Assembly (NCBI RefSeq): GCF_037975245.1
Contig: NC_092570.1
Location: 6,429,001-6,493,000 of the forward strand
From: Apostichopus japonicus
Lineage: Eukaryota; Echinodermata; Holothuroidea; Aspidochirotida; Stichopodidae
Direction: 5' to 3'
DNA: 64,000 nucleotides
The notes beneath the pieces are model-generated. The model made no database searches. It was not told where the DNA came from and saw only the letters and a program-made list of their open reading frames with translations. Positions within the stretch are counted from its first letter, which is position 1. Every line of letters starts with the position of its first letter. Made by a program: the position numbers and the translations under genes. Positions 39,357 through 64,000 of the stretch are shown piece after piece.

Positions 39357-42296
39357 ATTCGATGTTATCAATTCAATTCCATTAGTTCTATCACGCTTAG
39401 TTAAAAAGCATTTCGAGCAACGCGTACCAACGTGGAACGCGACATTCACCACTTTACTCGTAACCTGTATTCGTAACCTAAATTCGTGTGCGCATATATT
39501 TGCTGTGAACTTGCAGACTCCGTTACAGAATGATTTGAAGAGAAATGGATACTTATTCGTGATAATGAAGTTTTTCCAGCGTATATATTAGTTTTCAAAA
39601 TTGGAAATGGTGATATCATGTCAAAAAAAAGCATTTTTCTAAACAGTTCGAAAGTGGTTAATGTACGTTCGAAAAATACGGCCAAATTCCCTTTCCACTC
39701 CTTTTTTGTGTCTTTTGTCGATAACTATTGGATTAAACATCTTTCCTTCATCAAATTCAATTATTACCAGACCTATACATTGGTATAATGACTGAGAAAT
39801 TGACCTTCGAAAATGGTAAGCTTTACCTCATTAAATATTAACGAGGAGTGACGTCTAGAAACGCCGTGCATATTCTACAAGAAAAGAAAGCACTTTTCGC
39901 ACCTTTGGGGACTGACTGGGTAGTCATGTGAGTAAACGGTGTTGTAATAGTTTCATCTATGGATGCCTTTACACGCGGCTAGAAGTACCATTTTCCAATA
40001 ATTAATCTTCACCATGCCAGTTTTTGTGTATGGAATCATTGGGCCGATCGAAATTAAATACACAGAGAAAATTCATTATTCGATCATTTTGAAATTCGTA
40101 ACCATGTACCAAAATAATTACAATGGGTAGGCCTACGTACGTAACACTTAATTGAACGAGCGACGGAAGGGTCTTTGTTAAGAAATGAAACTAGCGCGCA
40201 AAGTTATATCGATCTGAAAGTTGCAAAAGAAAAACGCACGTCAAGCACATGTTAGCGGTATGCACGATTACGGAAAAGCTTTTGACATTGCAAATGTTTG
40301 GTATGGGACTAAATTCAAGCAGCCACCCCCCCCCGCCCGCCCCCACGCCTCCCCTCCGGTCTAGTCATTCCGATTATGTCCCGGACTGTCATGAAGAGCC
40401 GTAGCCACAGTGGAGATGGGAAGATGTCCCCATCCCCAATGAAAATATTTAAAACATTTTATTCCAACTTTTGGCCTTTAAAAATTAAATACTTGGTACT
40501 ATACGTTATAGTTAAAAATCTGAAAATGATAGCACCATTTTGCATCTAATAAATTTTTCATTGACCCCTCCACGGACACACATCAACCAAAATCTGTGTC
40601 TGTCAAAATCGAATTGAATACTGGTTATGAATCTGATGGAAACTAGGCCTTTTTACTAAAAGAACTGATAATAACTCAATTATTCACATCCTTCAAACAT
40701 AAGCGGAGCAGGAAACCTTCACATGTCACTCACAGGACACCGTATACTGTCATTGGCGTTATCCATCAGCGATCAGGGGTTACAGCGCTAGCTCCATCCT
40801 CAGCGCACTAAATATTCATATATCATAGGGGGGTTAACACCTATGTATTTCTTTATCCAGCTCCATCCTGAACGCACATTAAACCCCACCCACATTATTT
40901 AAACCACGCCTATATCTCCAGTCTCAGCACACTCCTTATGTCACTCAAAGGTTTCCCCCGCCTTTATATGTTAATTTCACCTCTCGCGCTCACTTCAAAA
41001 AGTGGCAGACGACCAACTGTTCAACGCACAACCAATTAGCCTAACGGTACACTTCATCGCTCGCTGCTGTACAAACCATATACAGTATCATTAGACCTAC
41101 GATGTGAAGAGGCCTAAGTTAGATAATAATCTTTGCTAGTTACGAGCTTCGCTTTACCTGGGGATACGCAGAAGTTGGACAAATATCATCCAGCAAGCCC
41201 CATACGAAAAGTCCAGATGTTAAGAGGTTGTACTGTAAGTACAAGGCCTAAGTAGTACAATTCAACTCGGTGGGTTACAATTAATAACATAGCCTAGGCC
41301 TAGCCTATGCCAGGCTAAGTTAAGTTTAATTAGTCTTACTCTTAGTAACAGAAAACTAATACTGAAATCAAATTTATGCTAGCCTATTACTACTACTAGT
41401 AGAGGCCGGCCCCCTATCAACAATACTACTTTCATTTCTCCAGTGAGTCCAGTCCCAAGATTAGGCTTATGAAATATGATAATAGTCCCAACTTCCCCAA
41501 TGTTATGTTATATTGTGTCAGACTTAGCTTTACGTTTTTGGTAAAACTAGTCATCAACTAGGCCTATTGCTATTGTCATACTCATACTGGGCCACTTATG
41601 TTACGTTAGGGCCTGCCTTGATTAGGACAGGATTGTGCACTCCATTTCACAGCCCACAAGGGCTGTGAAAATTTTTCCACTATTTAATAAATGGCACAAG
41701 GCCAACAGGTGGTTTAAGGCTATATTCACTGGTTTCCAAATTTTCAAGTGTGATCAGAGCTAGCACAATGTAAAGCACTGCAATAATGCTTAGGCCTATA
41801 GGCCTATGTGAAGTCCAATTTGAAATTGGTTGTTCTCAGAGCCAATACCCAAATTAACCATGTGTATCACTTCTGATGAAGATGGATTTATTTTGGCCTT
41901 ACTGCCAAGGTGAATGTGCTGCTGCAATTATCATCATCAAATAAAGATATCAACTTCATTGGCACTTGGTGCTTTCAAGAGTTTCTTAATAATCATTAAT
42001 TACTCTTACCACAGTGGTGGAACCGTTGATATTTCTGAGGACTCACCTACAGTAAAGTGGTAATAATGTATTTAAATTTACATTGCACCTTTCTTTCCCA
42101 TTAGAGTGTGTGCAAGTTTTTATAGGCTCTATGTATTTTACCACACACCAGTTTTTTTTTATATCATAGATAGAAAGATAATTATCAGTTGTAGATATCC
42201 TGCAACAAAAATGTTGATGAAGGTAATGTTATGTTACCTTCACTTTGAGACCTTCACAGCCAGCGGTGTAGATCTTCACTTATTGGTGGTAAATGG
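39357..42296. other. Unassigned DNA, possible promoter region
   Basis: No coding exon is recognised. A stretch near 40,880-41,050 has CACCC-type and TATA-like motifs. TGTACT followed by GTAAGT near 41,229-41,240 could be the donor of a 5' untranslated exon of the downstream gene. An 11-bp hairpin (TTTCACAGCCC, loop ACAA) lies at 41,645-41,670. C-rich tracts occur near 40,325-40,345. Confidence 0.35.
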
Positions 42297-42304
42297 AGTA
42301 CTGG

Positions 42305-42684
42305 CAGTGGCGGACCGGCCACACAGGCATTTGGGCAATGCCCGGTGGGCTGGGGAACCTGGTAGAAATTACAGCCCATTTTCACACTTAGCTAACAGAA
42401 TACAGATGGGCTGTGTCAAAAAATATTTTTTAACTTTGGGAATCAGCTCATGAAAAATTATTTTTTGGTCATTTTAAAAGGATTATTGTAACCTACAAAA
42501 TTGAGAAATATAGCAACATTTTGCAACTTCAAAAACCTTTCAATGGGGAGGGTTTCCCCCTCCCCTTAGACCCCTCCCCAGGAAAGCAATCACTATGTAT
42601 TCAGCATATCAATAAATAATGGGCCGGTCTAGGTGGAAAATGCCCGGGAGGGGGGGGGGGCGGTTAAGACCCAGTCCGCCCCTG
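42305..42684. mobile_element. hAT-like MITE
   Basis: A 380-base element with ends CAGTGGCGGACCGGCC and a matching GTCCGCCCCTG, and a perfect 8-bp duplication AGTACTGG (42297-42304, 42685-42692). The internal CCCTCCCCTTAGACCCCTCC stretch resembles the element at 17685-18058, so the two may be related. No transposase. Confidence 0.9.
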
Positions 42685-42886
42685 AGTACTGGCATACTGT
42701 ACCTTGGGATACATGCAGCACTTGATGTGGCAACAGAGTTTAGATATATTCGTGCAGTTCGAAGACATTTTGTATGGAAAGCAGTGTTCAAATTTACACA
42801 TGCATCAATCCCCCTTCCTTGGCACGATGTGTTGAATTTAACTTAACCAATTTCTGCTCTCCTTTATTTGTGTACCCCGTAGAATC

Positions 42887-45800
42887 ATGGATGATGACCT
42901 GCAGCTGTTCGCATGTTCTTTGTGTGATGTCACCACTCTGACAAGAGCGTCTCTACTTTGGCATAATCGATGCTGTCATTTGCAACCATCAACTGCATAT
43001 CAAGGTACTGATTGTTAGTTATTTTCACTCTTTAACATTGAGTTATTGAAATTGAATGTGTCTTGAGTATATTACAGTAAGTAGAATTACACATACAATT
43101 TTAATAGGTGAACCATACAGTAGGATCACTAATGATCCATTCTCTGTGGCGGGTGTCCCAGTCAGAGCCACAGTACCTTGCACAAAGGATTTTAAACCAG
43201 GTCTCACACTCCAATTACGTTTGATACAACCAAGAAGCAGAGAGAGGGGAATTTCCAGAGAGTTGGCTGTTAATACAATTGAGCAATGAAAGTACAATTA
43301 GGGCAGATTTATGACTGTACAGGTCAATAACATATCAGTAGATTGTCCACAATGGTGAAATTATTTTATGATTTTCACATGCTTTGTCACCTCCCACAGA
43401 GAAAACGTGCAGAGAGTCGAAGTTAATTTAGTAATAAAGAAGGAAAAATTTGTTTTGTTGAACATGTTGGTAAGAACAAGTTTGCTTGTGGAAAGCATCA
43501 ATGATGTTCAAAACTTGTTACAATTGTTCATTACAAGAAATATTGGGAGTCAAGAAAGAAACACATACTGACTTTAATGCATTGGATACTTTATTTGCTT
43601 AATGTAAGGAACCGAAAAAGGTGTAGCTGGTTTGATGAAAGTAAAAGCTGTAAGTTATCTGGTTACTCCTCAAGTTGTATCAGTTATGCCATAACAATCT
43701 GTTCTGGTGATGTAGCTTATCCTACAGGTGGTTCAATTCCACTGGCAGATCATTGACTGAGGCTTTCTGTATACTTCAAAGGGCAGTTTAACCTGTGTTA
43801 ACAATTTTGTTGCTTTATGAAGAACATTATTCACTAGCTACTTTTAAAATTCAAAATGTTATTGAAGCTTTCATATCTCTTGTGGATAACTTATTAAGCA
43901 CAACACTGCAAAAAATCAAATAAAATTATGTTGAAAGGTCAATAACGTATCTCACGAAGGTTATGACGTTGGTCTTCATTCAGGAACTACATTAACCCTC
44001 CTCTGTAACAGATCCATTACAATGGAAACCGCCTCTTGGTTCAAATATAAGATAATGTATTTTTATTTAATTTCTTAAAATCAGTACTCACTGTTTTCAT
44101 GTCTCTTAGTAGTCGGAGAAACTGTCTCTAATTACAGTATATATGCTATAGTTGAGGTCACTACAGCAAATCTTTAAACTCTGCAGTGTTACATGGACAG
44201 AGGTCCTGGTTTGGGGTGGGTTGGGCGGGATGAGTTTGAATGACCAGAGCCTGCTTTTCTCTCTAAAGCTATTGCTTAATTATATTAATAAAGTTCAGTA
44301 GCAAAGTGCTAAGAACCTACAGTAAGCAACATTGGCAATGTTGCCATCAATAGTTATTTGGGAAGTATGAAGTAGATTGTTCATTTGATTCCAGAGTTAT
44401 CGATAAATGGAGGGGAAAAAATAGTTATTTTGGTTTCCATTACAATATTAGTTTGCATGAAAAATGAAACTGGGCCATATGTTATACTGGACACTCCTGC
44501 TGCAACGGTCACCCTTACATGTGTAGTTTTGTACGTAACGTGAATGCGTGAACCATGACTTTCATGCAAGTTGAACTGAAGATTATTTTTTCACATGAAC
44601 TATTTTTCACAAGCCAAGGCTAATCTTTCCTTGTTCAATAATAGATAATTTATCCCCTTTAGAAGTGCCAACTGGATGACAAATTAATGTTTAAGGAGCT
44701 AAAAAATATGTGGATGTACATGTATCTTGCCCATTTTATTGGTTTTGATGATATTCCAAACCTTTGCATTCATGATGGCGTATGTGTGCGTATTTGTGTG
44801 TGCGTTTTTGATGGCCAGCTTGTAAGCACAGTATATATCTGAAGAAGGGAAGGTTGAACCAATTTCATATTGAGTGTGTGAAAGTACCACATTAAATACA
44901 AGAAGCCTATTATTTCTTATGGAGGTCCAAGGTCATTTGGGGTCACCAGGGGTCAAATTGTGAAAATCTTGTGAACATGATATCTCAATAAGAGAAGCTT
45001 GGGCAGATCTCATTTCAGGACAGCATGTGTCATTGTGAATGTTTGGTTGTCACATCACACTGCTTTTCACTGTATTACTCAGATCAAGTATGTTGTACAC
45101 CCTCACTATACCCTCAGAACACAAAATTGGATAACTTGTATGAATGAAACTAATTATGTTTGACAGTTTCATATGATTGAAAGAACATATAAAGGAATTA
45201 GGAAAAGGTGTATGCGTGTCCCTTTAACTCAGTTATGTTTCTCTTACACTGAAATATATACAGTTATAAAATCAAAAGTAAAAATCATGGGTACTGTTAA
45301 TGTAGTCACTTTTCAATCATGTACGTCAAGGTTACTTCATCACAAGCCTTGCACTGAGTGACTTGAGAATTGGGCTCAATGACTTGGGACTTGCCTTTAT
45401 AAAGAGCTTGTTGACACCTCTGCCTATGAGTACTGTTTCGACCAAAAGAAACGGTAAACACTCATAGATAAACTTAAGAAAATCCAAAATGCTGCTGCCA
45501 GACTTGTAACAGGTATATACTTCCAAATATGATCATATAAAACCCGTCTACATAACTTGCATTGGCTTCCAGTTAGAGATCGAATATCTTATAAGATTTT
45601 TTACTCACTTTTAAATGTATTTACAATATTGCACCGCAGTACCTTTGTGATTTAATTTCATACACTCCCTCTAGACCGTTGCATTCCTCGTCCCGTCTGC
45701 TTTTAACTGTCCCTAACATAAGAACTGCAAAATTTGGACTGAGATCTTTTAGCTATGCTTCACCAGTTTTATGGAATTCACTCCCTGAGGTTTTAAGAAA

Positions 45801-48800
45801 AATTGAATAACCCTTTTTAAATCAAACTTAAGACTCATTTATACTTCAAAGCTTATAATATCTGAATTCTTTTATGTATTATTATTTCTGTGGTTTGTCC
45901 ATGGTTTTATATTATTCTTATTATATTCTTACATATTATTGTTTTATTCTTCATTGTGTAAACTGCATATGAATATATATATTTTATAATATTTGCGCTG
46001 TATAAGGAACCATAATAATAATTATAGTAAACTTGTACTGATGTGACTACCTAATCATCCGTGACCAAAAAAAAGAATAGGTTGTTACTACATAAACATG
46101 CTACCTTAGTGCAGGGCGAGATGGCGAATAAGGAGGCTATAGGTGAAGTTGCATGGCAATAACATAAATGATTGATATTGTGATATATGAGCAAGTTATA
46201 TATATTACCAATATGTTATGATGAACATTTACACTGAACAACACTATCACAAGTTTTAAATTAATGTGTACATATCATCTTTCCAGATTCTACAGTCAGT
46301 TCCAAAGAAGAATTTGGTGAAAAATGTGCTGTTGCTAAAGACGATTGCTTCCTGTGCCAATTCAGTGATGGGAGGCCCTCAAGACAAAAAAGACACATGT
46401 TGTGTCACTGGATGAGTAAAAGTAACGTAATTTTCAATGGTATTACCTGTTTCCTATGTAAGAAAAATCACAACCAATCAAATACTGCTTCAGCAAATAT
46501 TCATCATTTTCATTGCTTCATTTGTGACAAGACAATTCAAAGAAGAATAGACTTTGAGAAACATTTGTGTAAGTGCTGGAAAGAGTTTGGGTACCCAGCA
46601 ATCATAGAACATGCAAGACAAAACACTTTCTCCGAAGTCAAAAACTCAGAGATAAGAGGAAGTACTGATAATTCTCCTAAACAATGTAATGAACACATGC
46701 CAACGATACAGCACACACAAACAAAACGATCTCAAGTGCAATCCGAGGACATCCTTGAACCGAAATGGAACCAAAACAAAAAAGAAACTGAAGAAGTCAA
46801 AGAACCCAAGAAGACAGTCAGAAACATCCAAGAAATTATATCATGTGATATTTGCCAAGGTAAAATTCAACGATGTAGTCTCAATCGCCACTTGCGTACC
46901 AAACACAACACTGACACCACTATCTATGGAATTTGTGTAGACAGTGCATCTGCACTATATATGGTGCGTAAAACAACCAAGGGGTTAAACTTCCCCTGCC
47001 ATGTCCAAAAACAAGCATGTGGTACTGAGAACGCATTGAGGTGCGAGTTAAACGACTGCATCAGTGCAGCAGAAGTTGCCTCCAGATCTGGTTACCAGTC
47101 CTTTGAATGTCAACATCTAGAAAGAGCTTCCAAAAGTCTACCGGAACCATCACCACTTTGCCTTGAAGACGACTCGTTAATGTTGCTGTCCAGTACAGGA
47201 AAATACAAACTTTTTACAGATTCATCAGTCAAGGAAGCAATCAAATTGAGAGACAATGCCACAAGAAGTCATTGTCAACCAGTCATTCAGTTCCCTTGTC
47301 AACCCCGAGATAGATTCCAACATTTTTCAGTTTATGAAGGGCATGTGCACAATTATTGTCGTCTCAAGCGATGCGTTGTCTCAGTAAATACGTGTGATCA
47401 TACACTAGACTGTTCCTGTTGTCGACGTAAGCAGTCCTGTTTACACAAGTGTATGGTGTTATGGTTCCTAATGCAAAAAGGATCAGGTGAACTGCCTATA
47501 TTCAGTGATGTAGCTCAAGATGATGAAACCAACATTCCAGATTTTGAAGATGAGAATGTATCTCTACCTTTGGGTATTTCAAAAGTTGTGTACCCCCCTG
47601 ATGATGAGGATCTGGTCAAACGGATGACTTCATATTTACTTCAAAAGAAGAAGTGTCCACATCCACTACCTGCAGATTTAAAGAGAAGAGAAAACATTCC
47701 ACAGCTTTTTGTACCATCCGAAACAATTTGTCAGTTTTGTAATGTGCCTTTGACACAACCAATTCTTGTCACAAATAAGGCAAAAGTTTTTACACTACGT
47801 GGACTTAAGTTAAATGTATCAACCTATGTGAAGTTGTGCTCTAAATGCAACTTACCTTACAGATATCAAGAAACAACAGATGGCATACATAATTATAACG
47901 ATTTATTTCTCTTGACGTATGAAGTTCTTGACATTTTGGAGCAAAGCATCTCCTGCCATATTGCGATTGGCAGTCAGGTAGAGTGTCTTAATAAAGCTCT
48001 AAACATTAATCTAAATTCTGCAACTGTACTAGGGGCCTATTTACACTTTGCTGCCATGTGTGAAAGAAAATATGACTTTTTCTGTGTAATTTGTGGTCAT
48101 CATCCACCAATACTCATCATGGATTTGGACAAAAAAGGAGCATTTCACTGCGACAACAGCCAAATGAACCTTCCTGAGGAAACTCCAGAAAGTGATGTGG
48201 TGGATGCAGATGCATTCTGGCAGAATGTTGACATGCACCAAGTTGCCAGCGGTCTTTTAAAAAGTGGAGTAAAGAATCCCTTTCCAGTCATTGCAGGATA
48301 TGAAAATTGGGCTCCCTATATATCTCCACACAGCAGGAAATCTAATATAGTAAACAATACAGAGCATCAGAAGGTTTGTAGATCAACCGGCCAATTGGAA
48401 GAAGAGGCTCACAACATGCCTGAAGAACGTTTACTTGAACTGATGTATAATAGCACCACCAAAACTGTCAAAGACCTAGGGAAGGGGTTGGGCATTAACG
48501 GCATAACACGAATGTCCAAATCAGATGTCATACAGAAAATACAACAGGCAATTACAAATGATGAGTCCAAGTTCAACAAGCTGTTTACAAAAGCCTGGGG
48601 GAGTTCTGGTGGCTGGGCCTCAATCGTTTGCCCCCATGGTATTGTATATGCTGTTAAGTTTATTGTAAGGGCAGAAAGCCCTAGAGATTATGTCGATATG
48701 TTGTCAAGTATGAAGTTCCTGCCAAACATTGTTATTGTTGATATGCCACATATGGTGGTTGCACATGCTAAAAAGAGATACCCGGCTATGTTTCATCCTA

Positions 48801-50419
48801 ATGAAGGCCGATTAGCCCCTTTCACAGAAACAAACATGAAATGGGCCAAGAAGCGGGAGCTGGTGGTAGACTTACCTTGGTTACAGAACAACATGTGCCT
48901 TTCAGATCCAAAGAATGGTCAGCACCCTGTGACAGGATCTACCGAGCACTACTGCTTATTCGACAGGCTGCATGAAAATAATTCTAAGAAAGAAGCAGAA
49001 ATTTTGAGAAGAATCACACATGTGCCACAACTAAATGGTTACATCAACACACAAGTTGTTGAGCAGCTACATCAGGAGCTCAACAGGAATAATCATTTTC
49101 TCACACAAATGAATGCAGCGAGACACATTTTTATGTTTCGCAATGCTTTGGATCTCCACAATAATGAACTGAATGAAAAGAAAGCAAGCATGGTACAGCA
49201 AAAGACAGGTTACAATTTACAGTTGAATGCATTTGGGAGAGTGGAGCTTAGTAATCACATTGCAACAACCACTCAAGAGGTCAGATGTTCAAATGTTTTC
49301 CATCAGGCATTTACAGGTGATAACAACTCAGATGTAGAATCTTACAGTGGAGACATACCTTCAGTGACAGGCACAGCAGCTGCACAAGAATCAGTGTCTA
49401 ATCATACATCATCATCAACCTCAGCAAGTACTTCAGCTGACCAACCAAAAGATTCTTCGACTGAAACCTCATCAAAACAACCTTCCCCATCACATATCTC
49501 CCAGTCGCATACCAAAGACAGCTACACGTACACCGTTGAGGCCGATGAACTATCTGTCATAGATTTGACTGGTCCAGAGGCATCTGAGCTTCCAGATGAC
49601 ACAAGTTATCGCAGTGTGTGGATTCCCTCACTGTATCTTACCCAAGTTGAGCTAGGAATTCTAAACAGAAAAGAGTGCTTAACAGACACAGTAATAGAAG
49701 CAGGCCAGATCCTACTTAAGAAGCAGTTCTCATATATCTGCGGTTTACAGCCACCATGCTTGTCTCAGTCGCCATATGGATTTGATGTTCAGCCAGGGGA
49801 ATTTGTCCAAATAATCCACCTTCATTTCCATTGGTTGACATTGTCGACCATTGGGTGTCAACCGTCAGAGATTAACGTCTATGACAGCATGCAGTCCAAC
49901 AATTATTCTCAAGTGTTGAAGAAGACAGCGGCATCATTAATGCTAAGCAAAGAGAACCAGATAAAGTTCAACATCATTAATGTTACGCAGCAGAAGGATG
50001 GCACATCATGTGGAGTTTATGCTTTGGCATTTGCATCAGCGCTGTGTCTGAAAATAGATCCATCAGAACTAATTTTTGATCATGCACGCATGTATTGCGA
50101 TTTGAAAAAATGTCTTGAAATCGGACAAATGGGCTTGATTGGAGCGGATAGAAATCGAAGGAAAATTGTTAAAGTAATCCGATCTTTTACTACGAAGATA
50201 TTCTGTACTTGTAGATGTCCAGACGACGGAAATCTGATGATGGAGTGTATTGCTTGCAAAGAATGGTTCCATGAAGAGTGTGTTGGCCACATACCACTTG
50301 GAAATTTCATCTGCAGACTTTGCCGGAAACGTAGAGTTGATGCAAAAGAAGACAATGCTGTGAAGAAAAGAAGAAAAATTCAAGAGACCAATCAGGAACT
50401 GGACACTCTCAAGAAATAA
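42887..50419 (+). CDS. Zinc finger, transposase-derived (HMGXB3/KDZ-like), Ulp1 protease and PHD-finger protein
   Basis: Exons 42,883-43,004 (start codon 42,887; acceptor CCCCGTAG before it) and 46,287-50,419 (acceptor CTTTCCAG) join in frame into about 1,416 residues. In order: C2H2 fingers at 10-31 and 60-80, further C2H2/C2HC-type fingers at about 94-136 and 226-246, and a cysteine cluster with CSCCRRKQSCLHKC (about 415-428). A second C-x2-C pair of clusters lies at about 521-560. A SAP-like helix pair is at about 753-795. A DDE-like core has candidate acids D652/D654, D858 and E965 and the landmarks VDMPHMVVAH and HPVTGS. A SUMO-interaction motif VIDLT is at 1130-1134. The Ulp1/C48 protease has H1221, D1239, Q1275 and C1281 (DGTSCGVYAL). 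A C4HC3 PHD finger follows at 1348-1385, then a basic nuclear signal KKRRK. The core resembles HMGXB3-like proteins and KDZ/Zisupton transposases. It could be a domesticated nuclear SUMO protease or an intron-bearing transposon gene, since no flanking inverted repeats are visible. The family match is from recall, not a search. Confidence 0.7.
44930..44955 (+). promoter_or_regulatory. Three AGGTCA-type half-sites in DR4 spacing
   Basis: AGGTCA-tttg-GGGTCA-ccag-GGGTCA: three direct half-sites of the nuclear-receptor type, each four bases apart. DR4 spacing is preferred by thyroid-hormone- and LXR-type receptors. They lie in the intron of the zinc finger/Ulp1/PHD gene. The stretch may belong to an interspersed repeat, so a regulatory role is only possible. 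Confidence 0.3.
45365..46015 (+). mobile_element. CR1/Jockey-type LINE, 3' fragment
   Basis: Translation across frameshifts gives the end of a non-LTR reverse transcriptase: KLKKIQNAAARLVTG (45,470-45,513), LHWLPVRDRISYKI (about 45,559-45,600), and YASPVLWNSLPEV (about 45,753-45,790). It ends in an ATAATAATAATTATAG-type tail. It is 5'-truncated and inactive, and sits in the intron of the zinc finger/Ulp1/PHD gene in the same orientation. Confidence 0.85.
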
Positions 50420-50420
50420 A
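50415..50420 (+). other. Poly(A) signal overlapping the stop codon
   Basis: AATAAA spans the TAA stop (50,417-50,419) of the zinc finger/Ulp1/PHD gene. If used, the 3' untranslated region would be only about 15-30 bases. No other AATAAA follows until about 52,946. Confidence 0.4.
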
Positions 50421-51301
50421 ATTGCATACTGTCAACTAAACAGAAGATTGCAGATGTAAACATCGATCAATAGAATTGCATTTGATTCTGTTTTCTCTGA
50501 CCCTTCACAAAACCTTGCTGTTCTGGCCAAGTGGAGATGGGTGGTTCATCTATGCAACGATGATACCCTTGGGGTAGCATTTGTTGACTCCACTTATCCA
50601 GATGATTTTGATTACATTTTTCTGAATGGGGCATCTCTGACTGATAACAAACACATGTACAAAATAATTGTTCACAAGATAGTCCATGCATTTGTGGTGA
50701 TGAATGGATATTTCAATACTACTGCATATGGCAAGCAGTTTTAATGATTTGTAGCTTGCAAGAAACTTCCACTTGATATGACAGACACAATATTGGACCC
50801 CACAATAGTTCTAGGTGCGACCTAAAATGAGGATTGATAGTATCAGTAAGAGGATCAGAACCTTCACTAACATTGGCCACACTTAGTGATGTTGCTGAGG
50901 CTTGTTAACCTAGACCATACAGTATGTTGTGTATTGGTTAGATTGATACAGTAGGTCTGGGAGGAGTGATGGGGGGGGGGGGAGGGAGGAAATTATTGGT
51001 AGTACATATGAGTCTTGTTTGAAATGGACCGTGATGCCATTTGGGAGGTATATAGCCTAGCTAGTACCCAGTAGTGATACAAATATAAGAAATAGTACGC
51101 TATATGAAGGACAAATGAGTGATTGTAGAATGACCAAAGCAGCACAGATTTAAAACCTGATGTTTACTATAAAGTGTTCAAAATGTTAAATACCCTCAAA
51201 TGGATCAAAGTTGGATATCCTGTACCATGACTAATATAAGTTTTCTTGCAACAAATCATTGTACTTGAAGGGGTAACATATTCATGTAATCACAGTATCT
51301 G
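50421..51301. other. Unassigned DNA downstream of the Ulp1/PHD gene
   Basis: Possibly 3' untranslated or intergenic sequence. It contains a G tract near 50,969-50,981. Short open frames on both strands (50,467-50,744) show no domain and no splice context. Confidence 0.4.
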
Positions 51302-52559
51302 CCCATACAAAAAAGTCCTGCAGGAATCCTGCAGGAATCCTATAGGATTCCTGTATATGGAACAGGATTCCTTACAAATGGAGATTGAACTATACACCAC
51401 TAAGTGTTAGAAACTTGATTTATTCATTGTAAAGCAGGATTCCTTTACAAAAATGCATGATTCTTGAATTCACTATAAAAACTCTACCTTCACATGCAAG
51501 CAGAAATCCTTCAGCCACAGTCTGGAATCCTTCATACACATGCAGGATTCTTTCATTTACGTACAAGAATCCTTCATATGCATGCAGGATTCCATGATGC
51601 ATGTACAGGAATCCTTCATAAGCATGCAGGATTCCTTTATTTATGTACACGAGTCCTTCATATGCATGCAGGGTTCCTTAATACACATACAAGAATCCTT
51701 CGTACAAATGTAAGAATCCTTCATTAACCTACAAGAATCCTTCACTCAGCCTATACACATGCAGGAATCCTTCATACACATATAGGGATCCTTTATACTC
51801 ATGATTTTTAAAAGACTGTGCAAGATATTTTACATGATTGTACAGGATTCTGGAGTCAATATGCAGGGATATTAACAGGATTGTGCAGGATTTTTTAAAA
51901 GTGTATGCAAGATAATTTACAGGATCGTACAGGACTTTTAAAAGTTTATGCCCAAATATTACAAGATTTTTACATGAATTTTAAAAAGCTATGCAAGACA
52001 ATATACAGCATTGCACAGGATTATTAAAAGATTTGAAAGATAATATACAGGATAGTACAGGACTTTTAAAAGACTATGCTTGATAATATACAGGATTGTA
52101 CAGGGCTTTTGAAAGATTATTCAAGATAATTTACAGGATTGTACAGGATTTTGAAAGACTCTATGCAAGATAATATACAGGATTGTACAGGACTTTTGAA
52201 AGACTATGCAAGATAATTTACAGGATATAACAGGACTTTTGAGAGACTATGCAAGATACTTTACAGGATTGTAAAGGACTTTTAAAAGTATATGCAAACA
52301 AATTACAAGATTTTACATGAATTTTAAAAGTTTATGAAAAATAATATACAGGATTGTACAGGACTTTTTTGTCATGCATAATCTTTGAATAGTCCTGTAC
52401 AATCCTGCAAATAATCATGCATAGTCCTTTAAAAATCCTGCAAACTTTCCTGTAGGAGTCCTTCATAAATCCTGCAGGATGTGGCCAAATCCTGGCATAA
52501 ATCCTGCAAAAAATCCCACAGGATCCTGCCGGATTTTATGCAGGACTTTTTTGTATGGG
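51302..52559. mobile_element. Inverted-repeat element filled with a ~21-bp minisatellite
   Basis: The ends are a perfect 21-bp inverted repeat starting CCCATACAAAAAAGTCCTGC. The left interior has about 12 units of a 21-bp repeat (GGATTCCTTCATACACATGCA type). The right interior has ~43-bp units (CAGGATTGTACAGGACTTTT plus AAAAGACTATGCAAGATAAT). Near the right end the motif reverses strand (AGTCCTGTACAATCCTGCA), so the element can fold. No coding capacity. I could not define a target duplication. Confidence 0.75.
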
Positions 52560-53338
52560 TGACTGAGTTGCAGGCAGGAAGCAAAATTCACTGAAGGAAT
52601 TAACAGCTAGGTCATGTATTAATTAATAAGAGTAAGGCAAAGTGCATGAAAGGATTTTAACAGATTTTACCAAAAAGATCTAGCCATGGGAGTACAGTGG
52701 GCTACATTTAAATCTCAGCTAAATCAAGACTAATTAACATTTCTACCTTAAAGGGGAATGGGGTGGTAGAAGGAATGAAGGTGAGTGAACTTTTGGCTGT
52801 ACAATTGAGGGACTCCATTATTTTCTCTCTATTTGGCCACCCTAGTTGTAGTAGTACTGAAAAGTACCACTAGTACTGTAGTGTAGGTTGGCTATCACTC
52901 TGTAAATGTTATCAGCTTGCCTGCATGAGTCATTCAATGTATTTTGAATAAAGTTAGTCCAAATTTAGTACTATCCATACAACAAAACGTGATATACATT
53001 GATTACCGGGGCTTAGCAGGCTTCGTGAAACTACACACCACACACTTCTATATAAGGCCAAGAGTAGCTAATCGTTGGTAGCCGCAAAATATCCTGAAGT
53101 ACGAATAAATAGCTGAAGTTGTGACGATAGTACCCCTACAGAATCCATCTCGGCAATCCCGGGCCTAAAAGTCAAAAATTGTGGCCGAAATAACCATTCT
53201 GACCCCAGAAATACTGAAGCGGCAACCTCAAACATGGAACGTCTCCCCTGAAATACAAATTACAACACTAAACCATTAAACTGCTATTTTTATTACCAAA
53301 TTGGCAAAATCAGCAATTTTACCTAAACTGCATTGCCC
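52560..53338. other. Unassigned DNA
   Basis: No gene recognised. AATAAA near 52,946 could serve as a distal poly(A) signal. A TATATAAGG motif is at about 53,050. Confidence 0.35.
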
Positions 53339-53340
53339 TA

Positions 53341-53456
53341 TGGCAAGCCGTTTTAGCATTTACCTCGTTGCTCTACTTAATTGGAACTAAAATAATACTT
53401 AAGTGGAATTAATTCTACCGGTAGAATAGCGAGGTAAATGTTAAAACGGCTTGCCA
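53341..53456. mobile_element. 116-bp TA-flanked MITE (Tc1/mariner-like)
   Basis: The arms TGGCAAGCCGTTTTAGCATT... and ...AATGTTAAAACGGCTTGCCA form a 27-bp inverted repeat with one mismatch, ending at CCTCG. TA flanks both sides (53,339-53,340 and 53,457-53,458), as expected for Tc1/mariner-type elements. No coding capacity. Confidence 0.8.
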
Positions 53457-53458
53457 TA

Positions 53459-54185
53459 TTGCCCACAAAGATTCCAAGTGTTAAAGTTGCCGAGTCCAGG
53501 GCCTTTTCAACATACTAACTCGGGGGGGGGGGGGGGCTTTCAGCCAGTCCCCTCCAATCCCCCATCAGTTGGATCACTCCCCACTCCCAGTAAGACTTTT
53601 TAACCAAATTTTGAGATAAAATGTCAAAATTGTGATATGAACAGTCAACATTTTGAGATAAAAGGTCAACATTTTTAATTTAATGTCAAAATTTAGAGAT
53701 TTGGGAATACTTTCTTTCTCTCCTATGGCCCTATATGAAGACAGAAATTGTCAACGTTTTATTGTGCCTAAAATGTTCTATATAGTTCATATGCTTGGCG
53801 ACACTCGGATTTGTGGTGGCATTCGACTCTGTACCGACGTGTCATGGTCATGATGGTCCTGCTTTTGAGAAATGCCCCCCCCCCACCCCACTAACAATTT
53901 CTTAAAAGGAGGGCCCTGTTTCAGACCCATGTTATTCAGCTGTGCTTGAAAATGTTTGGTCGAACTGTTTTAGTAAAAAGGTTTGCTCTTTCCCAGCTTG
54001 TTTTCCTTTTCTTTTCTTTTTGTTAGTTTTGGCAAACATTCCTAAACGGATTTTTTTAAAGAGCTCTATGGCACTATTTCGAATATGTTTGTGGGAGGTA
54101 TAGTCCTGATAGAGTAAAGAGGTCGTCAATTATAAATCATTTAAAAGATGTTGGCTAAGGTCATTCATAACATTAGTTTTATTAT
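53459..54185. other. Unassigned DNA with short GAGATAAAAGGTCAACATTT repeats
   Basis: A G tract near 53,522-53,537 is followed by two or three loose copies of a ~30-base TTTTGAGATAAAAGGTCAAC motif (53,610-53,700). No gene is seen. Confidence 0.4.
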
Positions 54186-55151
54186 ATTTTATTGATAGCA
54201 CTTGGATCAAACGTTACTGTACGATTTACATGGTCCATGGACAAATTTCTTCGGAACTATAAGAGCTTGAAAAGCAGTTTGTTTCACTGTAACTGCATCA
54301 AAAGCGATATAAGCATTCAAAATAAAGTTGTTAGTCAGGTTGTTAAAGGGTTAGTGTCAAATCTCTTTTTATAATCCAACTGAACATAACGGACCACGGT
54401 AATCAATCTTTGTTTCCTTACATTCGTATCAATGTAAGTTTTTAAATGAAGCTAAAAATGTCAAGTTTGTGAGTGGCCTTCTCGAAGGCCAAGGGAGACC
54501 TTTAACTTTTCACAATGTTTACAGTATATTAAATATGCCAAAGTTTCCTTTTACCATCTATACTGGATTAATTAATGCGATTCCTTTGTACTGGCGTCGA
54601 GAGTATGGTCAGAATTGTAATTTCCACAATTTTAATATGATTGAGCTGGATAACGTCATAAATTCCATCGCTATTTTCCAATGTGTTTATTCTCGATATT
54701 TGGATATAAGAAGATTAGAATAAATTTCACAGTTTACCCTGGGCAACAGAATATTTTCAGTTCAAACCTTTAAATAGAATAATTGGGACCTATAAGATTC
54801 TTCACATATGGGAAAATGAGACTCTCCAAACTGTACCTTTTTTGTGATATTCAGGTTGCAAGTATATATAACATCTGTTCTGGGAGTGTAATGTACCATC
54901 CTCTTTTATTTTAGGAGTTGAGGTGACATGTTCATCAGCAATCCTTATTCACAAAGAAGGATATCCTATTGGTTTTGTTTTTCGTGTTGATGTCATCTCA
55001 CCAATACAATATTCTTATTTTGCATATGAAGCATTTCATTTTCCAATGTAAATTGAACAAGTGTGTTCCTGTAGTAAATGAGTTTCTCTATCAACTTAAA
55101 TTTAAAAGAAAGCGTACAGAAGTACATCGGCACAAAACATTGATATCGTAA
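54186..55151 (+). mobile_element. Decayed L1/Tx1-type LINE ORF2, C-terminal fragment
   Basis: Several frames separated by frameshifts resemble the C-terminal part of an L1/Tx1-type ORF2 protein. They are: KFVSGLLEGQGRPLTFHNVY with NAIPLYWRREYG (about 54,450-54,605); a cysteine-bearing CKYI..HLFWECNV patch (about 54,857-54,900); and ILHMKHFIFQCKLNKCVPVV (about 55,014-55,075). No reverse-transcriptase core remains. The element is inactive. Confidence 0.6.
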
Positions 55152-55905
55152 TATTAATAATAGTAACTTCATGCAGCTTAAACAAGCCTTCGGGACATGC
55201 GATTCCCTCTGCCAGTAATTTTCTTTTATTGATTGTGTTGTTTATTTGAAGCATCTAGTATTAAATTATGATATTGGTTGTTAATTTGAATCCCGAGTTA
55301 TCAAAAATGGAGCCAAAAAGAAGAAGATTTAATTGAGGTTAAATTCATATTCATTCAGAGTTCTTGGAACTGCATGGTTTACTAGAGTTAAAGAGGGGGT
55401 GCACTGTGGTGTAGCAATTTCACTTTGTCATCATTGTTAAGTGATAGTATTCTATTGTTGATTTAACACATTCCATTGACGTTAATGAGTTATGTTCTAA
55501 GTACCTTTTTCAAGCTAGGCCTATATTGCACAAGCACAATTCTGTGAGTTAATCAGTTTGTTATATGTTATCATACAGTGTTGTTCAATCCTCGAAAGTA
55601 AAAGGATTGTGTATAATTCATTCTTGTTCTGTCGAGCTATTATATTCTATTTTTAAGGTATTTTGTTAATTCTAATCGTATAAAGACATATAGCCCCCAT
55701 ATAGATAATTGAGAGTGATGAAGGCTAACAATTTTAATTAACACTGGTCCGATGTCGGTGATAAGTTTTTTAAGAGGAAGGTAAAATAAAGGGACATTTG
55801 ACATGCCGTCTTGTATTTTGACTGAATTCTTATTGTTCTTTCTGTCTTTAATGATTTTGCAATTCAAAAGGGTAAATACAATCTTAAATTTGGTCGAAGT
55901 TATCG
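55152..55905. other. Unassigned AT-rich DNA before the satellite
   Basis: Nothing coding is recognised. Similarity to the satellite begins abruptly near 55,906-55,912. Confidence 0.4.
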
Positions 55906-58900
55906 CGGAACAGAATGTATTTAATAGACTTGACAATAAATATGTAGTCCATTTAGGGTCATACATTATCTCAATAATTGTTAAAAAAAGCTTAAAGTTG
56001 GTCAAATGTCGCAATTTTTATGATTCCATATACTAAAATGCCGTATTGAGCTGCCCTGAGGTGGAGCTGGGTTTTAACCCCGAAAAACACCCTAAATGTG
56101 CATCAATGAAGCTGAAATAAATACATAGTGTATTTAATAGACTTGACAATAAATATGTAGTCCATTTAGGGTCATACATTATCTCAATAATTGTTTAAAA
56201 AAAGCTTAAAGTTGGTCAAATGTCGCAATTTTTATGATTCCATACTAAAATGCCTCATTGAGCTGCCCTGAGGTGGAGCTGGGTTTTAACCCCGAAAAAC
56301 ACCCTAAATGTGCATCAATGAAGCTGAAATAAATACATAGTGTATTTAATAGACTTGACAATAAATATGTAGTCCATTTAGGGTCATACATTATCTCAAT
56401 AATTGTTAAAAAAAGCTTAAAGTTGGTCAAATGTCGCAATTTTTATGATTCCATACTAAAATGCCTCATTGAGCTGCCCTGAGGTGGAGCTGGGTTTTAA
56501 CCCCGAAAAACACCCTAAATGTGCATCAATGAAGCTGAAATAAATACATAGTGTATTTAATAGACTTGACAATAAATATGTAGTCCATTTAGGGTCATAC
56601 ATTATCTCAATAATTGTTAAAAAAAGCTTAAAGTTGGTCAAATGTCGCAATTTTTATGATTCCATACTAAAATGCCGTATTGAGCTGCCTTGAGGTGGAG
56701 CTGGGTTTTAACCCCGAAAAACACCCTAAATGTGCATCAATGAAGCTGAAATAAATACATGATGTATTTAACAGACTCGACAATAAATATGTAGTCCATT
56801 TAGGGTCATACATTATCTCAATAATTGTTAAAAAAAAGCTTAAAGTTGGTCAAATGTCGCAATTTTTATGATTCCATACTAAAATGCCTCATTGAGCTGC
56901 CCTGAGGTGGAGCTGGGTTTTAACCCCGAAAAACACCCTAAATGTGCATCAATGAAGCTGAAATAAATACATGATGTATTTAATAGACTTGACAATAAAT
57001 ATGTAGTCCATTTAGGGTCATACATTATCTCAATAATTGTTAAAAAAGCTTAAAGTTGGTCAAATGTCGCAATTTTTACGATTCCATATACTAAAATGCC
57101 GTATTGAGCTGCCCTGAGGTGGAGCTGGGTTTTAACCCCGAAAAACACCCTAAATGTGCATCAATGAAGCTGAAATAAATACATGATGTATTTAACAGAC
57201 TCGACAATAAATATGTAGTCCATTTAGGGTCATACATTATCTCAATAATTGTTAAAAAAAGCTTAAAGTTGGTCAAATGTCGCAATTTTTATGATTCCAT
57301 ATACTAAAATGCCGTATTGAGCTGCCCTGAGGTGGAGCTGGGTTTTAACCCCGAAAAACACCCTAAATGTGCATCAATGAAGCTGAAATAAATACATAGT
57401 GTATTTAATAGACTTGACAATAAATATGTAGTCCATTTAGGGTCATACATTATCTCAATAATTGTTAAAAAAAAGCTTAAAGTTGGACCAATGTCGCAAT
57501 TTTTATGATTCCATACTAAAATGCCTCATTGAGCTGCCCTGAGGTGGAGCTGGGTTTTAACCCCGAAAAACACCCTAAATGTGCATCAATGAAGCTGAAA
57601 TAAATACATGATGTATTTAACAGACTCGACAATAAATATGTAGTCCATTTAGGGTCATACATTATCTCAATAATTGTTAAAAAAAAGCTTAAAGTTAGTC
57701 AAATGTCGCATTTTTTATGATTCCACACTAAAACGGCGTATTGAGCTGCCCTGAGGTGGAGCTGGGTTTTAACCCCGAAAAACACCCTAAATGTGCATCA
57801 ATGAAGCTGAAATAAATACATGATGTATTTAACAGACTCGAAAATAAATATGTAGTCCATTTAGGGTCATACATTATCTCAATAATTGTTAAAAAAAGCT
57901 TAAAGTTGGTCATAAGTCGCATTTTTATGATTCCATACTAAAATGCCGTATTGAGCTGCCCTGAGGTGGAGCTAGATTTTAACCCCGAAAAACACCCTAA
58001 ATGTGCATCAATGAAGCTGAAATAAATACATAGTGTATTTAATAGACTTGACAATAAATATGTAGTCCATTTAGGGTCATACATTATCTCAATAATTGTT
58101 AAAAAAAGCTTAAAGTTGGTCAAATGTCGCAATTTTTACGATTCCATACTAAAATGCCGTATTGAGCTGCCCTGAGGTGGAGCTGGGTTTTAACCCCGAA
58201 AAACACCCTAAATGTGCATCAATGAAGCTGAAATAAATACATAGTGTATTTAATAGACTAGACAATAAATATGTAGTCCATTTAGGGTCATACATTATCT
58301 CAATAATTGTTAAAAAAAAGCTTAAAGTTGGTCAAATGTCGCATTTTTATGATTCCATACTAAAATGCCGTATTGAGCTGCCCTGAGGTGGAGCTGGGTT
58401 TTAACCCCGAAAAACACCCTAAATGTGCATCAATGAAGCTGAAATAAATACATGATGTATTTAACAGACTCGAAAATAAATATGTAGTCCATTTAGGGTC
58501 ATACATTATCTCAATAATTGTTAAAAAAAGCTTAAAGTTAGTCAAATGTCGCATTTTTTATGATTCCACACTAAAATGCCGTATTGAGCTGCCCTGAGGT
58601 GGAGCTGGGTTTTAACCCCGAAAAACACCCTAAATGTGCATCAATGAAGCTGAAATAAATACATGATGTATTTAATAGACTTGACAATAAATATGTAGTC
58701 CATTTAGGGTCATACATTATCTCAATAATTGTTAAAAAAAAAGCTTAAATTTGGTCAAATGTCGCATTTTTATGATTCCTTACTAAAATGCCGTATTGAG
58801 CTGCCCTGAGGTGGAGCTAGATTTTAACCCCGAAAAACACCCTAAATGTGCATCAATGAAGCTGAAATAAATACATAGTGTATTTAATAGACTTGACAAT

Positions 58901-61900
58901 AAATATGTAGTCCATTTAGGGTCATACATTATCTCAATAATTGTTAAAAAAAGCTTAAAGTTGGTCAAATGTCGCAATTTTTACGATTCCATACTAAAAT
59001 GCCGTATTGAGCTGCCCTGAGGTGGAGCTGGGTTTTAACCCCGAAAAACACCCTAAATGTGCATCAATGAAGCTGAAATAAATACATAGTGTATTTAATA
59101 GACTAGACAATAAATATGTAGTCCATTTAGGGTCATACATTATCTCAATAATTGTTAAAAAAAGCTTAAAGTTAGTCAAATGTCGCATTTTTTATGATTC
59201 CACACTAAAACGGCGTATTGAGCTGCCCTGAGGTGGAGCTGGGTTTTAACCCCGAAAAACACCCTAAATGTGCATCAATGAAGCTGAAATAAATACATGA
59301 TGTAGTTAACAGACTCGACAATAAATATGTAGTCCATTTAGGGTCATACATTATCTCAATAATTGTTAAAAAAAGCTTAAAGTTGGTCATAAGTCGCATT
59401 TTTATGATTCCATACTAAAATGCCGTATTGAGCTGCCCTGAGGTGGAGCTAGATTTTAACCCCGAAAAACACCCTAAATGTGCATCAATGAAGCTGAAAT
59501 AAATACATAGTGTATTTAATAGACTTGACAATAAATATGTAGTCCATTTAGGGTCATACATTATCTCAATAATTGTTAAAAAAAGCTTAAAGTTGGTCAA
59601 ATGTCGCAATTTTTACGATTCCATACTAAAATGCCGTATTGAGCTGCCCTGAGGTGGAGCTGGGTTTTAACCCCGAAAAACACCCTAAATGTGCATCAAT
59701 GAAGCTGAAATAAATACATAGTGTATTTAATAGACTAGACAATAAATATGTAGTCCATTTAGGGTCATACATTATCTCAATAATTGTTAAAAAAAGCTTA
59801 AAGTTGGTCAAACGTCGCAATTTTTATGATTCCATATACTAAAATGCCGTATTGAGCTGCCCTGAGGTGGAGCTGGGTTTTAACCCCGAAAAACACCCTA
59901 AATGTGCATCAATGAAGCTGAAATAAATACATAGTGTATTTAATAGACTTGACAATAAATATGTAGTCCATTTAGGGTCATACATTATCTCAATAATTGT
60001 TAAAAAAAAGCTTAAAGTTGGTCAAATGTCGCATTTTTATGATTCCATACTAAAATGCCGTATTGAGCTGCCCTGAGGTGGAGCTGGGTTTTAACCCCGA
60101 AAAACACCCTAAATGTGCATCAATGAAGCTGAAATAAATACATAGTGTATTTAATAGACTTGACAATAAATATGTAGTCCATTTAGGGTCATACATTATC
60201 TCAATAATTGTTAAAAAAAGCTTAAATTTGGTCAAATGTCGCAATTTTTATGATTCCATACTAAAATGCCGTATTGAGCTGCCTTGAGGTGGAGCTGGGT
60301 TTTAACCCCGAAAAACACCCTAAATGTGCATCAATGAAGCTGAAATAAATACATGATGTATTTAACAGACTCGACAATAAATATGTAGTCCATTTAGGGT
60401 CATACATTATCTCAATAATTGTTAAAAAAAAAGCTTAAAGTTGGTCAAATGTCGCAATTTTTATGATTCCATACTAAAATGCCGTATTGAGCTGCCCTGA
60501 GGTGGAGCTAGATTTTAACCCCGAAAAACACCCTAAATGTGCATCAATGAAGCTGAAATAAATACATAGTGTATTTAATAGACTTGACAATAAATATGTA
60601 GTCCATTTAGGGTCATACATTATCTCAATAATTGTTAAAAAAAGCTTAAAGTTGGTCAAATGTCGCAATTTTTACGATTCCATACTAAAATGCCGTATTG
60701 AGCTGCCCTGAGGTGGAGCTGGGTTTTAACCCCGAAAAACACCCTAAATGTGCATCAAAGAAGCTGAAATAAATACATAGTGTATTTAATAGACTAGACA
60801 ATAAATATGTAGTCCATTTAGGGTCATACATTATCTCAATAATTGTTAAAAAAAGCTTAAAGTTGGTCAAACGTCGCAATTTTTATGATTCCATATACTA
60901 AAATGCCGTATTGAGCTGCCCTGAGGTGGAGCTGGGTTTTAACCCCGAAAAACACCCTAAATGTGCATCAATGAAGCTGAAATAAATACATAGTGTATTT
61001 AATAGACTTGACAATAAATATGTAGTCCATTTAGGGTCATACATTATCTCAATAATTGTTAAAAAAAAGCTTAAAGTTGGTCAAATGTCGCATTTTTATG
61101 ATTCCATACTAAAATGCCTCATTGAGCTGCCCTGAGGTGGAGCTGGGTTTTAACCCCGAAAAACACCCTAAATGTGCATCAATGAAGCTGAAATAAATAC
61201 ATGATGTATTTAACAGACTCGAAAATAAATATGTAGTCCATTTAGGGTCATACATTATCTCAATAATTGTTAAAAAAAGCTTAAAGTTAGTCAAATGTCG
61301 CATTTTTTATGATTCCACACTAAAATGCCGTATTGAGCTGCCCTGAGGTGGAGCTGGGTTTTAACCCCGAAAAACACCCTAAATGTGCATCAATGAAGCT
61401 GAAATAAATACATGATGTATTTAATAGACTTGACAATAAATATGTAGTCCATTTAGGGTCATACATTATCTCAATAATTGTTAAAAAAAAGCTTAAATTT
61501 GGTCAAATGTCGCATTTTTATGATTCCTTACTAAAATGCCGTATTGAGCTGCCCTGAGGTGGAGCTAGATTTTAACCCCGAAAAACACCCTAAATGTGCA
61601 TCAATGAAGCTGAAATAAATACATAGTGTATTTAATAGACTTGACAATAAATATGTAGTCCATTTAGGGTCATACATTATCTCAATAATTGTTAAAAAAA
61701 GCTTAAAGTTGGTCAAATGTCGCAATTTTTACGATTCCATACTAAAATGCCGTATTGAGCTGCCCTGAGGTGGAGCTGGGTTTTAACCCCGAAAAACACC
61801 CTAAATGTGCATCAATGAAGCTGAAATAAATACATAGTGTATTTAATAGACTAGACAATAAATATGTAGTCCATTTAGGGTCATACATTATCTCAATAAT

Positions 61901-64000
61901 TGTTAAAAAAAGCTTAAAGTTAGTCAAATGTCGCATTTTTTATGATTCCACACTAAAACGGCGTATTGAGCTGCCCTGAGGTGGAGCTGGGTTTTAACCC
62001 CGAAAAACACCCTAAATGTGCATCAATGAAGCTGAAATAAATACATGATGTAGTTAACAGACTCGACAATAAATATGTAGTCCATTTAGGGTCATACATT
62101 ATCTCAATAATTGTTAAAAAAAGCTTAAAGTTGGTCATAAGTCGCATTTTTATGATTCCATACTAAAATGCCGTATTGAGCTGCCCTGAGGTGGAGCTAG
62201 ATTTTAACCCCGAAAAACACCCTAAATGTGCATCAATGAAGCTGAAATAAATACATAGTGTATTTAATAGACTTGACAATAAATATGTAGTCCATTTAGG
62301 GTCATACATTATCTCAATAATTGTTAAAAAAAGCTTAAAGTTGGTCAAATGTCGCAATTTTTACGATTCCATACTAAAATGCCGTATTGAGCTGCCCTGA
62401 GGTGGAGCTGGGTTTTAACCCCGAAAAACACCCTAAATGTGCATCAATGAAGCTGAAATAAATACATAGTGTATTTAATAGACTAGACAATAAATATGTA
62501 GTCCATTTAGGGTCATACATTATCTCAATAATTGTTAAAAAAAAGCTTAAAGTTGGTCAAATGTCGCATTTTTATGATTCCATACTAAAATGCCGTATTG
62601 AGCTGCCCTGAGGTGGAGCTGGGTTTTAACCCCGAAAAACACCCTAAATGTGCATCAATGAAGCTGAAATAAATACATGATGTATTTAACAGACTCGAAA
62701 ATAAATATGTAGTCCATTTAGGGTCATACATTATCTCAATAATTGTTAAAAAAAGCTTAAAGTTAGTCAAATGTCGCATTTTTTATGATTCCACACTAAA
62801 ATGCCGTATTGAGCTGCCTTGAGGTGGAGCTGGGTTTTAACCCCGAAAAACACCCTAAATGTGCATCAATGAAGCTGAAATAAATACATGATGTATTTAA
62901 TAGACTTGACAATAAATATGTAGTCCATTTAGGGTCATACATTATCTCAATAATTGTTAAAAAAAAAGCTTAAATTTGGTCAAATGTCGCATTTTTATGA
63001 TTCCTTACTAAAATGCCGTATTGAGCTGCCCTGAGGTGGAGCTAGATTTTAACCCCGAAAAACACCCTAAATGTGCATCAATGAAGCTGAAATAAATACA
63101 TAGTGTATTTAATAGACTTGACAATAAATATGTAGTCCATTTAGGGTCATACATTATCTCAATAATTGTTAAAAAAAGCTTAAAGTTGGTCAAATGTCGC
63201 AATTTTTACGATTCCATACTAAAATGCCGTATTGAGCTGCCCTGAGGTGGAGCTGGGTTTTAACCCCGAAAAACACCCTAAATGTGCATCAATGAAGCTG
63301 AAATAAATACATAGTGTATTTAATAGACTAGACAATAAATATGTAGTCCATTTAGGGTCATACATTATCTCAATAATTGTTAAAAAAAGCTTAAAGTTAG
63401 TCAAATGTCGCATTTTTTATGATTCCACACTAAAACGGCGTATTGAGCTGCCCTGAGGTGGAGCTGGGTTTTAACCCCGAAAAACACCCTAAATGTGCAT
63501 CAATGAAGCTGAAATAAATACATGATGTAGTTAACAGACTCGACAATAAATATGTAGTCCATTTAGGGTCATACATTATCTCAATAATTGTTAAAAAAAG
63601 CTTAAAGTTGGTCATAAGTCGCATTTTTATGATTCCATACTAAAATGCCGTATTGAGCTGCCCTGAGGTGGAGCTAGATTTTAACCCCGAAAAACACCCT
63701 AAATGTGCATCAATGAAGCTGAAATAAATACATAGTGTATTTAATAGACTTGACAATAAATATGTAGTCCATTTAGGGTCATACATTATCTCAATAATTG
63801 TTAAAAAAAGCTTAAAGTTGGTCAAATGTCGCAATTTTTACGATTCCATACTAAAATGCCGTATTGAGCTGCCCTGAGGTGGAGCTGGGTTTTAACCCCG
63901 AAAAACACCCTAAATGTGCATCAATGAAGCTGAAATAAATACATAGTGTATTTAATAGACTAGACAATAAATATGTAGTCCATTTAGGGTCATACATTAT
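55906..64000. repeat. 211-bp satellite array, continuing past the window
   Basis: About 38 head-to-tail monomers of 209-214 bp occupy all the sequence to the right edge. Every monomer carries GAGCTGCCCTGAGGTGGAGC (or a one-base variant), CCCCGAAAAACACCCTAAAT, GAAGCTGAAATAAATACAT and GTCCATTTAGGGTCATACAT. Differences between monomers recur in a set order, for example GCTAGATTTTAACC in the monomers starting near 57,938, 58,783, 59,415, 60,474, 61,531, 62,163, 63,008 and 63,640. That is higher-order organisation. A 64-codon minus-strand frame is open in most monomers but is not evidence of coding. Confidence 0.97.

Follow-up and report, generated by a model that had tools for sequence, protein, structure and literature searches.

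A large, probably KDZ-related transposon of Apostichopus japonicus whose main gene joins zinc fingers, a C48 protease domain and a PHD finger

The 64,000-nucleotide stretch of the Apostichopus japonicus genome analyzed here (contig NC_092570.1; C10:6429001-6493000, hereafter the window) has as its longest open reading frame (ORF) one of 1384 codons from stop to stop (46265-50419, forward strand). An original prediction, made from the letters alone, had read in its product zinc fingers, a transposase-derived core, a SUMO-interaction motif (SIM), a Ulp1/C48 protease and a PHD finger, and this raises the question of whether the gene belongs to a transposon or is a chromatin regulator kept by the host. 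We find that the element is, with near certainty, a transposon; the window gene is very probably the main gene of a large cut-and-paste element related to the KDZ (Kyakuja-Dileera-Zisupton) transposons, with the domain roles suggested below. The genome searched comprises 671,581,487 bases in 35 contigs; labels such as C4, C5, C8, C10 and C15 denote its contigs, of which C10 carries the window.

Element ends, copies and relatives

The gene lies between 13-bp terminal inverted repeats (TIRs), the right-hand one within C10:6494409-6494422, and the element is bordered by an 8-bp target site duplication (TSD), the right copy of which (C10:6494423-6494430) falls outside the window (table 1). Both ends were read in 11 copies: the one on C10, that on C8 at 30.17 Mb, those on C15 and C4, and seven short ones. 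A perfect 8-bp TSD was found for 7 of these 11 (C10, C13, C19, C8b, C17, C15, and C4); for C15 and C4 it was located by a search over 31 by 31 offsets and lies at an identical offset in both. None of 57967 shifted comparisons, made for the seven short copies, gave agreement at all eight bases. The imperfect TSDs agree at 1/8 bases in C11, 0/8 in C16, and 0/8 at fixed offset in C12; the left end of C12 is one base shorter, and with that allowed, its TSD agrees at 6/8 by eye. The C8 copy is bordered by a 6-bp repeat that may be due to chance.

Copy number, proposed as a check in the original prediction, is consistent with a mobile element. The protein of the C8 copy is 99% identical to that of the window, and the DNA 98.97% over 9.6 kb. 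Relatives on C15, C4, and C5 span 43-55% protein identity, with C15 and C4 at about 55%; these two elements (20.2 and 22.5 kb) sit at different target sites, each inside its own perfect 8-bp duplication, and are 99.1% identical to each other over 17.4 kb, the C15 frame being open. A search with the left 1.5 kb of the element gave 47 matches, many beginning at an identical base. The seven short copies (4.1-9.1 kb) have their ends and a 211-bp satellite array in common with the long elements, and since none of them is in the protein-search list (34 of 78 candidates scored), they look non-autonomous. Viral contigs scanned with the family alignment yielded no relative, with 46 pattern-matching stretches and 0 confirmed. 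The C4 element has about six near-identical 917-bp tandem units close to its left end (C4:9590556-9596060, loci L018 and L010); its sister on C15 carries roughly two of them, seen as an 1838-bp match.

Domestication of a KDZ-type transposase as a chromatin regulator of the host would fit the long open frame, the retention of exon 1 in relatives and the low ratio of nonsynonymous to synonymous substitution rates (dN/dS) against the C8 copy. This ratio was 0.225 over 1292 codons, from 14.5 synonymous and 12.5 non-synonymous changes, with 1 synonymous and 0 non-synonymous changes in the C48 part; the comparison leaves out the PHD part, as the break in the C8 frame precedes it. Between C10 and C15, dN values were as follows: core 0.22, C48 0.32, PHD 0.30, finger part 0.59, and linker 1.1; between families, synonymous sites are saturated in most regions. 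However, the gene lies inside a unit that has TIRs and an exact TSD, a near-identical second copy exists, and two relatives at other target sites as well as many decayed copies accompany it, so that a domesticated host gene is very improbable, and we rejected it on the TIRs and TSD. The TIRs, TSDs, several copies, decayed copies and short derivatives together identify the element as a transposon, and of the two options that the original prediction had kept side by side, only this one stands. The prediction had also held that many near-identical copies with TIRs would make it an ordinary active transposon: this was for the most part borne out, but with an SprT-like domain, a PHD finger in a KDZ-type element and satellite cargo it is not entirely ordinary.

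The satellite array itself invites another explanation, that the 211-bp repeat drove the spread of the copies by segmental duplication, since it is present in 4/4 long copies read (43.8 units in the window, 18.6 in C8, 16.4 in C15, and 10.4 in C4). We regard this as scarcely credible: the copies end at their TIRs, and 7/11 are enclosed by perfect 8-bp duplications that are specific to each copy. The arrays of the window and C15 are about 75% identical. A two-unit query of the genome gave 124 matches, including all ten other copies of which both ends were read, and missed the window's own array, so that these counts are unreliable lower bounds.

Domain content of the predicted protein

The predicted junction between exons 1 and 2 (43004/46287) is in frame and gives a protein of 1416 aa without a stop. 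A relative of exon 1 is present in C15/C4 (43% over 30 aa, E about 6e-6) and was not found at C5. The expectation of at least four DNA-binding-type fingers was borne out by eye: exon 1 encodes one C2H2 finger and exon 2 three more (CFLC..H..H, CFIC..H..C, CDIC..H..H), four of C2H2/C2HC type in all. A Pfam scan of the protein gave no finger match, and outside support comes from one weak match in the PDB, to the fingers of CTCF (E 0.3). An extra feature, unnamed in the original prediction, is a SWIM-like zinc motif, the cysteines and histidine of which are invariant in 3/3 sequences.

The predicted SIM, VIDLT, was recovered by motif in the window, C8, and C15 (two in C15), and it adjoins a domain that scores above the PF02902 (C48) cut-off of 20.7 bits, both in the whole window protein (22.0 bits, E 1.6e-4) and when scanned alone (27.4 bits, E 3.5e-6). 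H1189, D1207, Q1243, and C1249 keep the Ulp1 order and are invariant in 4/4 aligned family members, as the original prediction of a complete catalytic set would have it, and in PDB searches the family C48 profile matched SENP1 at E 5e-5 over the whole chain and 0.003 over the aligned stretch. The domain may plausibly act as a SUMO protease. The competing reading is that of a YopJ-type acetyltransferase, or of some other member of the protease clan that does not remove SUMO, as the YopJ profile PF03421 matches the same stretch below its cut-off (window E 1.5e-4) and in C5 even beats C48 (E 0.0017 vs. 0.016). We consider this unlikely: C48 scores higher in the window and in L006, the first PDB matches of the family profile are SENP1 and SENP5, and the SIM lies next to the domain in three copies, though not in C5.

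For the C4HC3 PHD finger, which had been called intact, phmmer matched the PHD of PHF2 at E 1.8e-6, with further PDB matches to SPP1 and DIDO1. All eight zinc ligands are invariant in 3/3 aligned members, and the cage-type F/Y, M, and W are kept in the window, C15, and C5; the Pfam PHD profile itself has no match in the window protein and exceeds its cut-off in 1/3 sister proteins with the region. The matched PHD fingers bind H3K4me3, and by analogy the window finger may do so too.

The assignment to KDZ elements fared less evenly. In its favor are the CxC4 domain PF18717, which is associated with KDZ transposases (41.6 bits in the six-frame scan and 30.8 bits for the core segment of the window copy, though it is not listed in the whole-protein Pfam scan), and the 8-bp target duplication. 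Against it, the Pfam KDZ core profile PF18758 matches 41 other places of the genome but none of the element's copies; for this reason we regard the element as likely KDZ-related and do not claim strict KDZ/Zisupton membership. One canonical match to PF18758 (C8:30191396-30192523) is a neighbor of the C8 copy, at a distance of about 6 kb. The DDE-like transposase-derived core of the original prediction found no profile support, with no Pfam transposase match in the window or sister proteins scanned, and the first observation is therefore only partly confirmed: D826, D900, and E933 are candidates only. An alignment of the core with the motifs of five canonical KDZ copies (Z 2.4 and 1.9, from 200 column shuffles each) is suggestive only. 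AlphaFold models from the window sequence alone had a predicted local distance difference test (pLDDT) score of 34.7 for the C48-PHD part and 36.6 for the core and were not used.

The original Zisupton paper reportedly describes zinc fingers together with a Ulp1 SUMO protease domain at the C-terminus. The window element resembles Zisupton/KDZ elements in its CxC4 domain, zinc fingers, Ulp1 domain, TIRs and 8-bp duplications and in its predicted multi-exon gene; it differs in the missing KDZ core match, in its size of 20-25 kb with satellite arrays, and in the PHD and SprT-like domains added in its family. According to excerpts of the literature, Zisupton makes 8-bp target duplications (PMC12730594) and the KDZ/Zisupton gene is multi-exon (PMC9297572); excerpts also have Zisupton without a DDE transposase (PMC3706591) and, later, among the DDD/E superfamilies (PMC9587614).

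Table 1. Positions of the element and of its features within the window
Feature	Position	Strand	Remarks
Left copy of 8-bp TSD, CCATCAGC	40763..40770	.	8/8 bases match right copy
Transposon, part inside window	40771..64000	+	whole element C10:6469771-6494422, 24,652 bp; ends 1.4 kb beyond window
Left terminus, GATCAGGGGTTACAGCGCTA	40771..40790	+	13 bp, ATCAGGGGTTACA, recur inverted at right end
Exon 1	42887..43004	+	39 codons and one base; ATG 42887; one C2H2 finger
Exon 2	46287..50419	+	bulk of protein, within ORF 46265-50419
Three further C2H2/C2HC-type fingers	46346..46906	+	by eye
SWIM-like CxC..CxH zinc motif, CSCCRRKQSCLH	47411..47446	+	by eye
CxC4 domain PF18717	47690..47950	+	Pfam, above cut-off 26.9
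Weak Rho_N/SAP-like helix pair	48470..48556	+	Pfam, below cut-off
Candidate transposase core	48602..49150	+	D826, D900, E933 proposed as DDE; weak
SIM, VIDLT	49556..49570	+	ORF residues 1098-1102; by motif
C48/Ulp1 protease domain	49607..50134	+	H1189, D1207, Q1243, C1249
PHD finger, C4HC3	50198..50332	+	F/Y-M-W cage-like residues
Relict SprT-like domain	50466..50822	+	out of frame with gene, stops; HExxH Glu replaced (HKIVH)
42-43 bp tandem repeats behind gene	51525..52368	+	
211-bp satellite array, inside element	55916..64000, on to C10:6494185	+	43.8 copies

An SprT-like ending in the sister copies

The sister frames on C15 (1596 aa) and C5 (1733 aa) continue past the PHD finger into a C-terminal SprT-like domain of the SPRTN/GCNA type with HEMVH or HEMAH, which was not in the original prediction; the C4 copy carries one as well. 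Scanned alone against PF10263, the domains reached 27.9, 24.4, and 34.2 bits, two of the three above the cut-off of 25.6. We then searched 11 sequences (the window, L012, L001, L039-L044, L006, and L017) by tblastn with the C15 and C5 domains. The stretch was recovered in six (window, L001, L006, L039, L041, and L044), in each of them broken by stops or frame changes: the motif reads HKIVH in the window and C8 (L001) and QEMVH in L044, and HExxH is kept in L039, L006, and L041. It was not found by tblastn in the other five: L012 and L017 are located outside the genes, L040 is Ginger-type, L042 has a closely similar C48, and L043 stops short of its copy's C-terminus (a C-terminal match is at C12:5600592). 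With the domain present in the sisters and left as broken relicts in six sequences including the window, an SprT ending is most likely ancestral, with a later loss in the lineage of the window copy.

GCNA/ACRC and SPRTN, with which the sister transposon proteins have the SprT-like domain in common, are DNA-protein crosslink proteases of the host's repair machinery and are not known to carry a transposase, C48 or PHD part. A genomic SprT exon outside the family (C14:11019997-11020101, L065) is GCNA-like by eye (HELCHA..GHG), and it aligns with the transposon SprT over just 12 residues around HExxH. SIMs place GCNA at crosslinks (PMC7782752); a limited literature search found no KDZ-type element with SprT.

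A proposed mechanism and related C48-PHD stretches

If the parts act as read, the N-terminal fingers would bind the element ends and subterminal repeats, and the DDE core, with D826, D900, and E933 as proposed, would cut and join with an 8-bp stagger. The PHD finger could dock the complex on H3K4-methylated chromatin, where the SIM and C48 domain would find proteins at the site and strip SUMO from them; the targets may be the transposase itself or host factors of silencing or repair. In the longer sisters, a last step by the SprT-like metalloprotease would free the DNA of tightly bound transposase or host protein and let repair finish; the window copy would have lost this step while keeping its other parts open. 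We tentatively suggest, as a possibility that is still doubtful, that one chain thus holds its own SUMO-targeted chromatin-clearing kit (SIM, deSUMOylase, H3K4me reader, and SprT-type DNA-protein crosslink protease), a home-made equivalent of GCNA, the host protein that pairs SIMs with SprT, with which it dismantles the transpososome and escapes germ-line SUMO silencing.

Several results weigh against the reading of the gene as that of a KDZ-related cut-and-paste element with these domain roles, in addition to the unmatched KDZ core profile. Concerning the element, a perfect 8-bp TSD is missing in 4/11 copies, including the near-identical one on C8 at 30.17 Mb, the terminal motifs of which are damaged on both sides; the C8 frame is open for 1303 codons and then broken behind C48, the C4 frame has one in-frame stop, and C15 and C4 (2 synonymous and 4 non-synonymous changes) are too close for selection to be visible. 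Concerning the core, the proposed DDE residues are drawn from three sequences that align weakly, and the best shuffle twice beat the real KDZ-motif alignment (31.9 vs. 25.4 and 29.9 vs. 23.9). The SIM is absent in C5, and was likewise absent from the partial linker of L006. Whole-protein PF10263 scans stayed below cut-off (C15 24.8 and C5 17.1 bits), a genome search with this profile gave two matches (C14 and C12:2806871), neither of them C15 or C5, and the PDB match of the SprT-like domain to SPRTN is weak (E 0.07).

The C48-PHD part of the window was also compared with 18 loci of the genome (L040, L041, L042, and L050-L064), the last 15 being drawn from 51 genomic C48 matches, of which the remaining 36 could alter the picture. 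L040 and L042 match the window across C48 and into the PHD, of which they cover the first half, with 38% identity (E 2e-40 and 1e-38). L041 belongs to the window family in decayed form, the match of L056 is weak (E 6e-4), and the other 14 of the 18 showed none. L040 (3769-6327, at C16:7079 kb) encodes H2C2 and rve integrase domains, a cysteine-rich stretch, a C48 domain and a changed PHD-like part, altered at the His and not listed by Pfam; its integrase domains mark it as Ginger-type. No Gypsy-type rve/H2C2 core as in Ginger1 appeared in the Pfam scans of the window and sister proteins. Related Ulp1-PHD stretches are therefore found in two unrelated transposon groups of one genome, and a shared donor or exchange between the groups would explain the common stretch.

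As far as the excerpt of PMC2836005 goes, Ginger1 elements likewise carry Ulp1, in one family Ulp1 and PHD, behind the transposase; they differ in their Gypsy-integrase core and 4-bp CCGG/CCGT-type duplications, as opposed to the 8 bp and proposed KDZ-type core of the window element. Ulp1 in transposases (the same excerpt has it in Mutator) and Ulp1 with PHD in Ginger1 were thus already known. KDZ, transposon and PHD are named together in PMC7641404 and PMC12510652, and within the limited search no paper was found that names KDZ, Ulp1, transposon and PHD together. Should the parts act as proposed, a single transposon protein would hold both arms of SUMO-linked DNA-protein complex removal; the reason for which unrelated transposases retain Ulp1 domains could then be tested directly, and the clearance of transpososomes would be linked to the SPRTN/GCNA pathway.

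Apart from the element, one 23-bp minisatellite unit recurs in three arrays of the window (2503-2902, 16727-17096, and 23803-24158).

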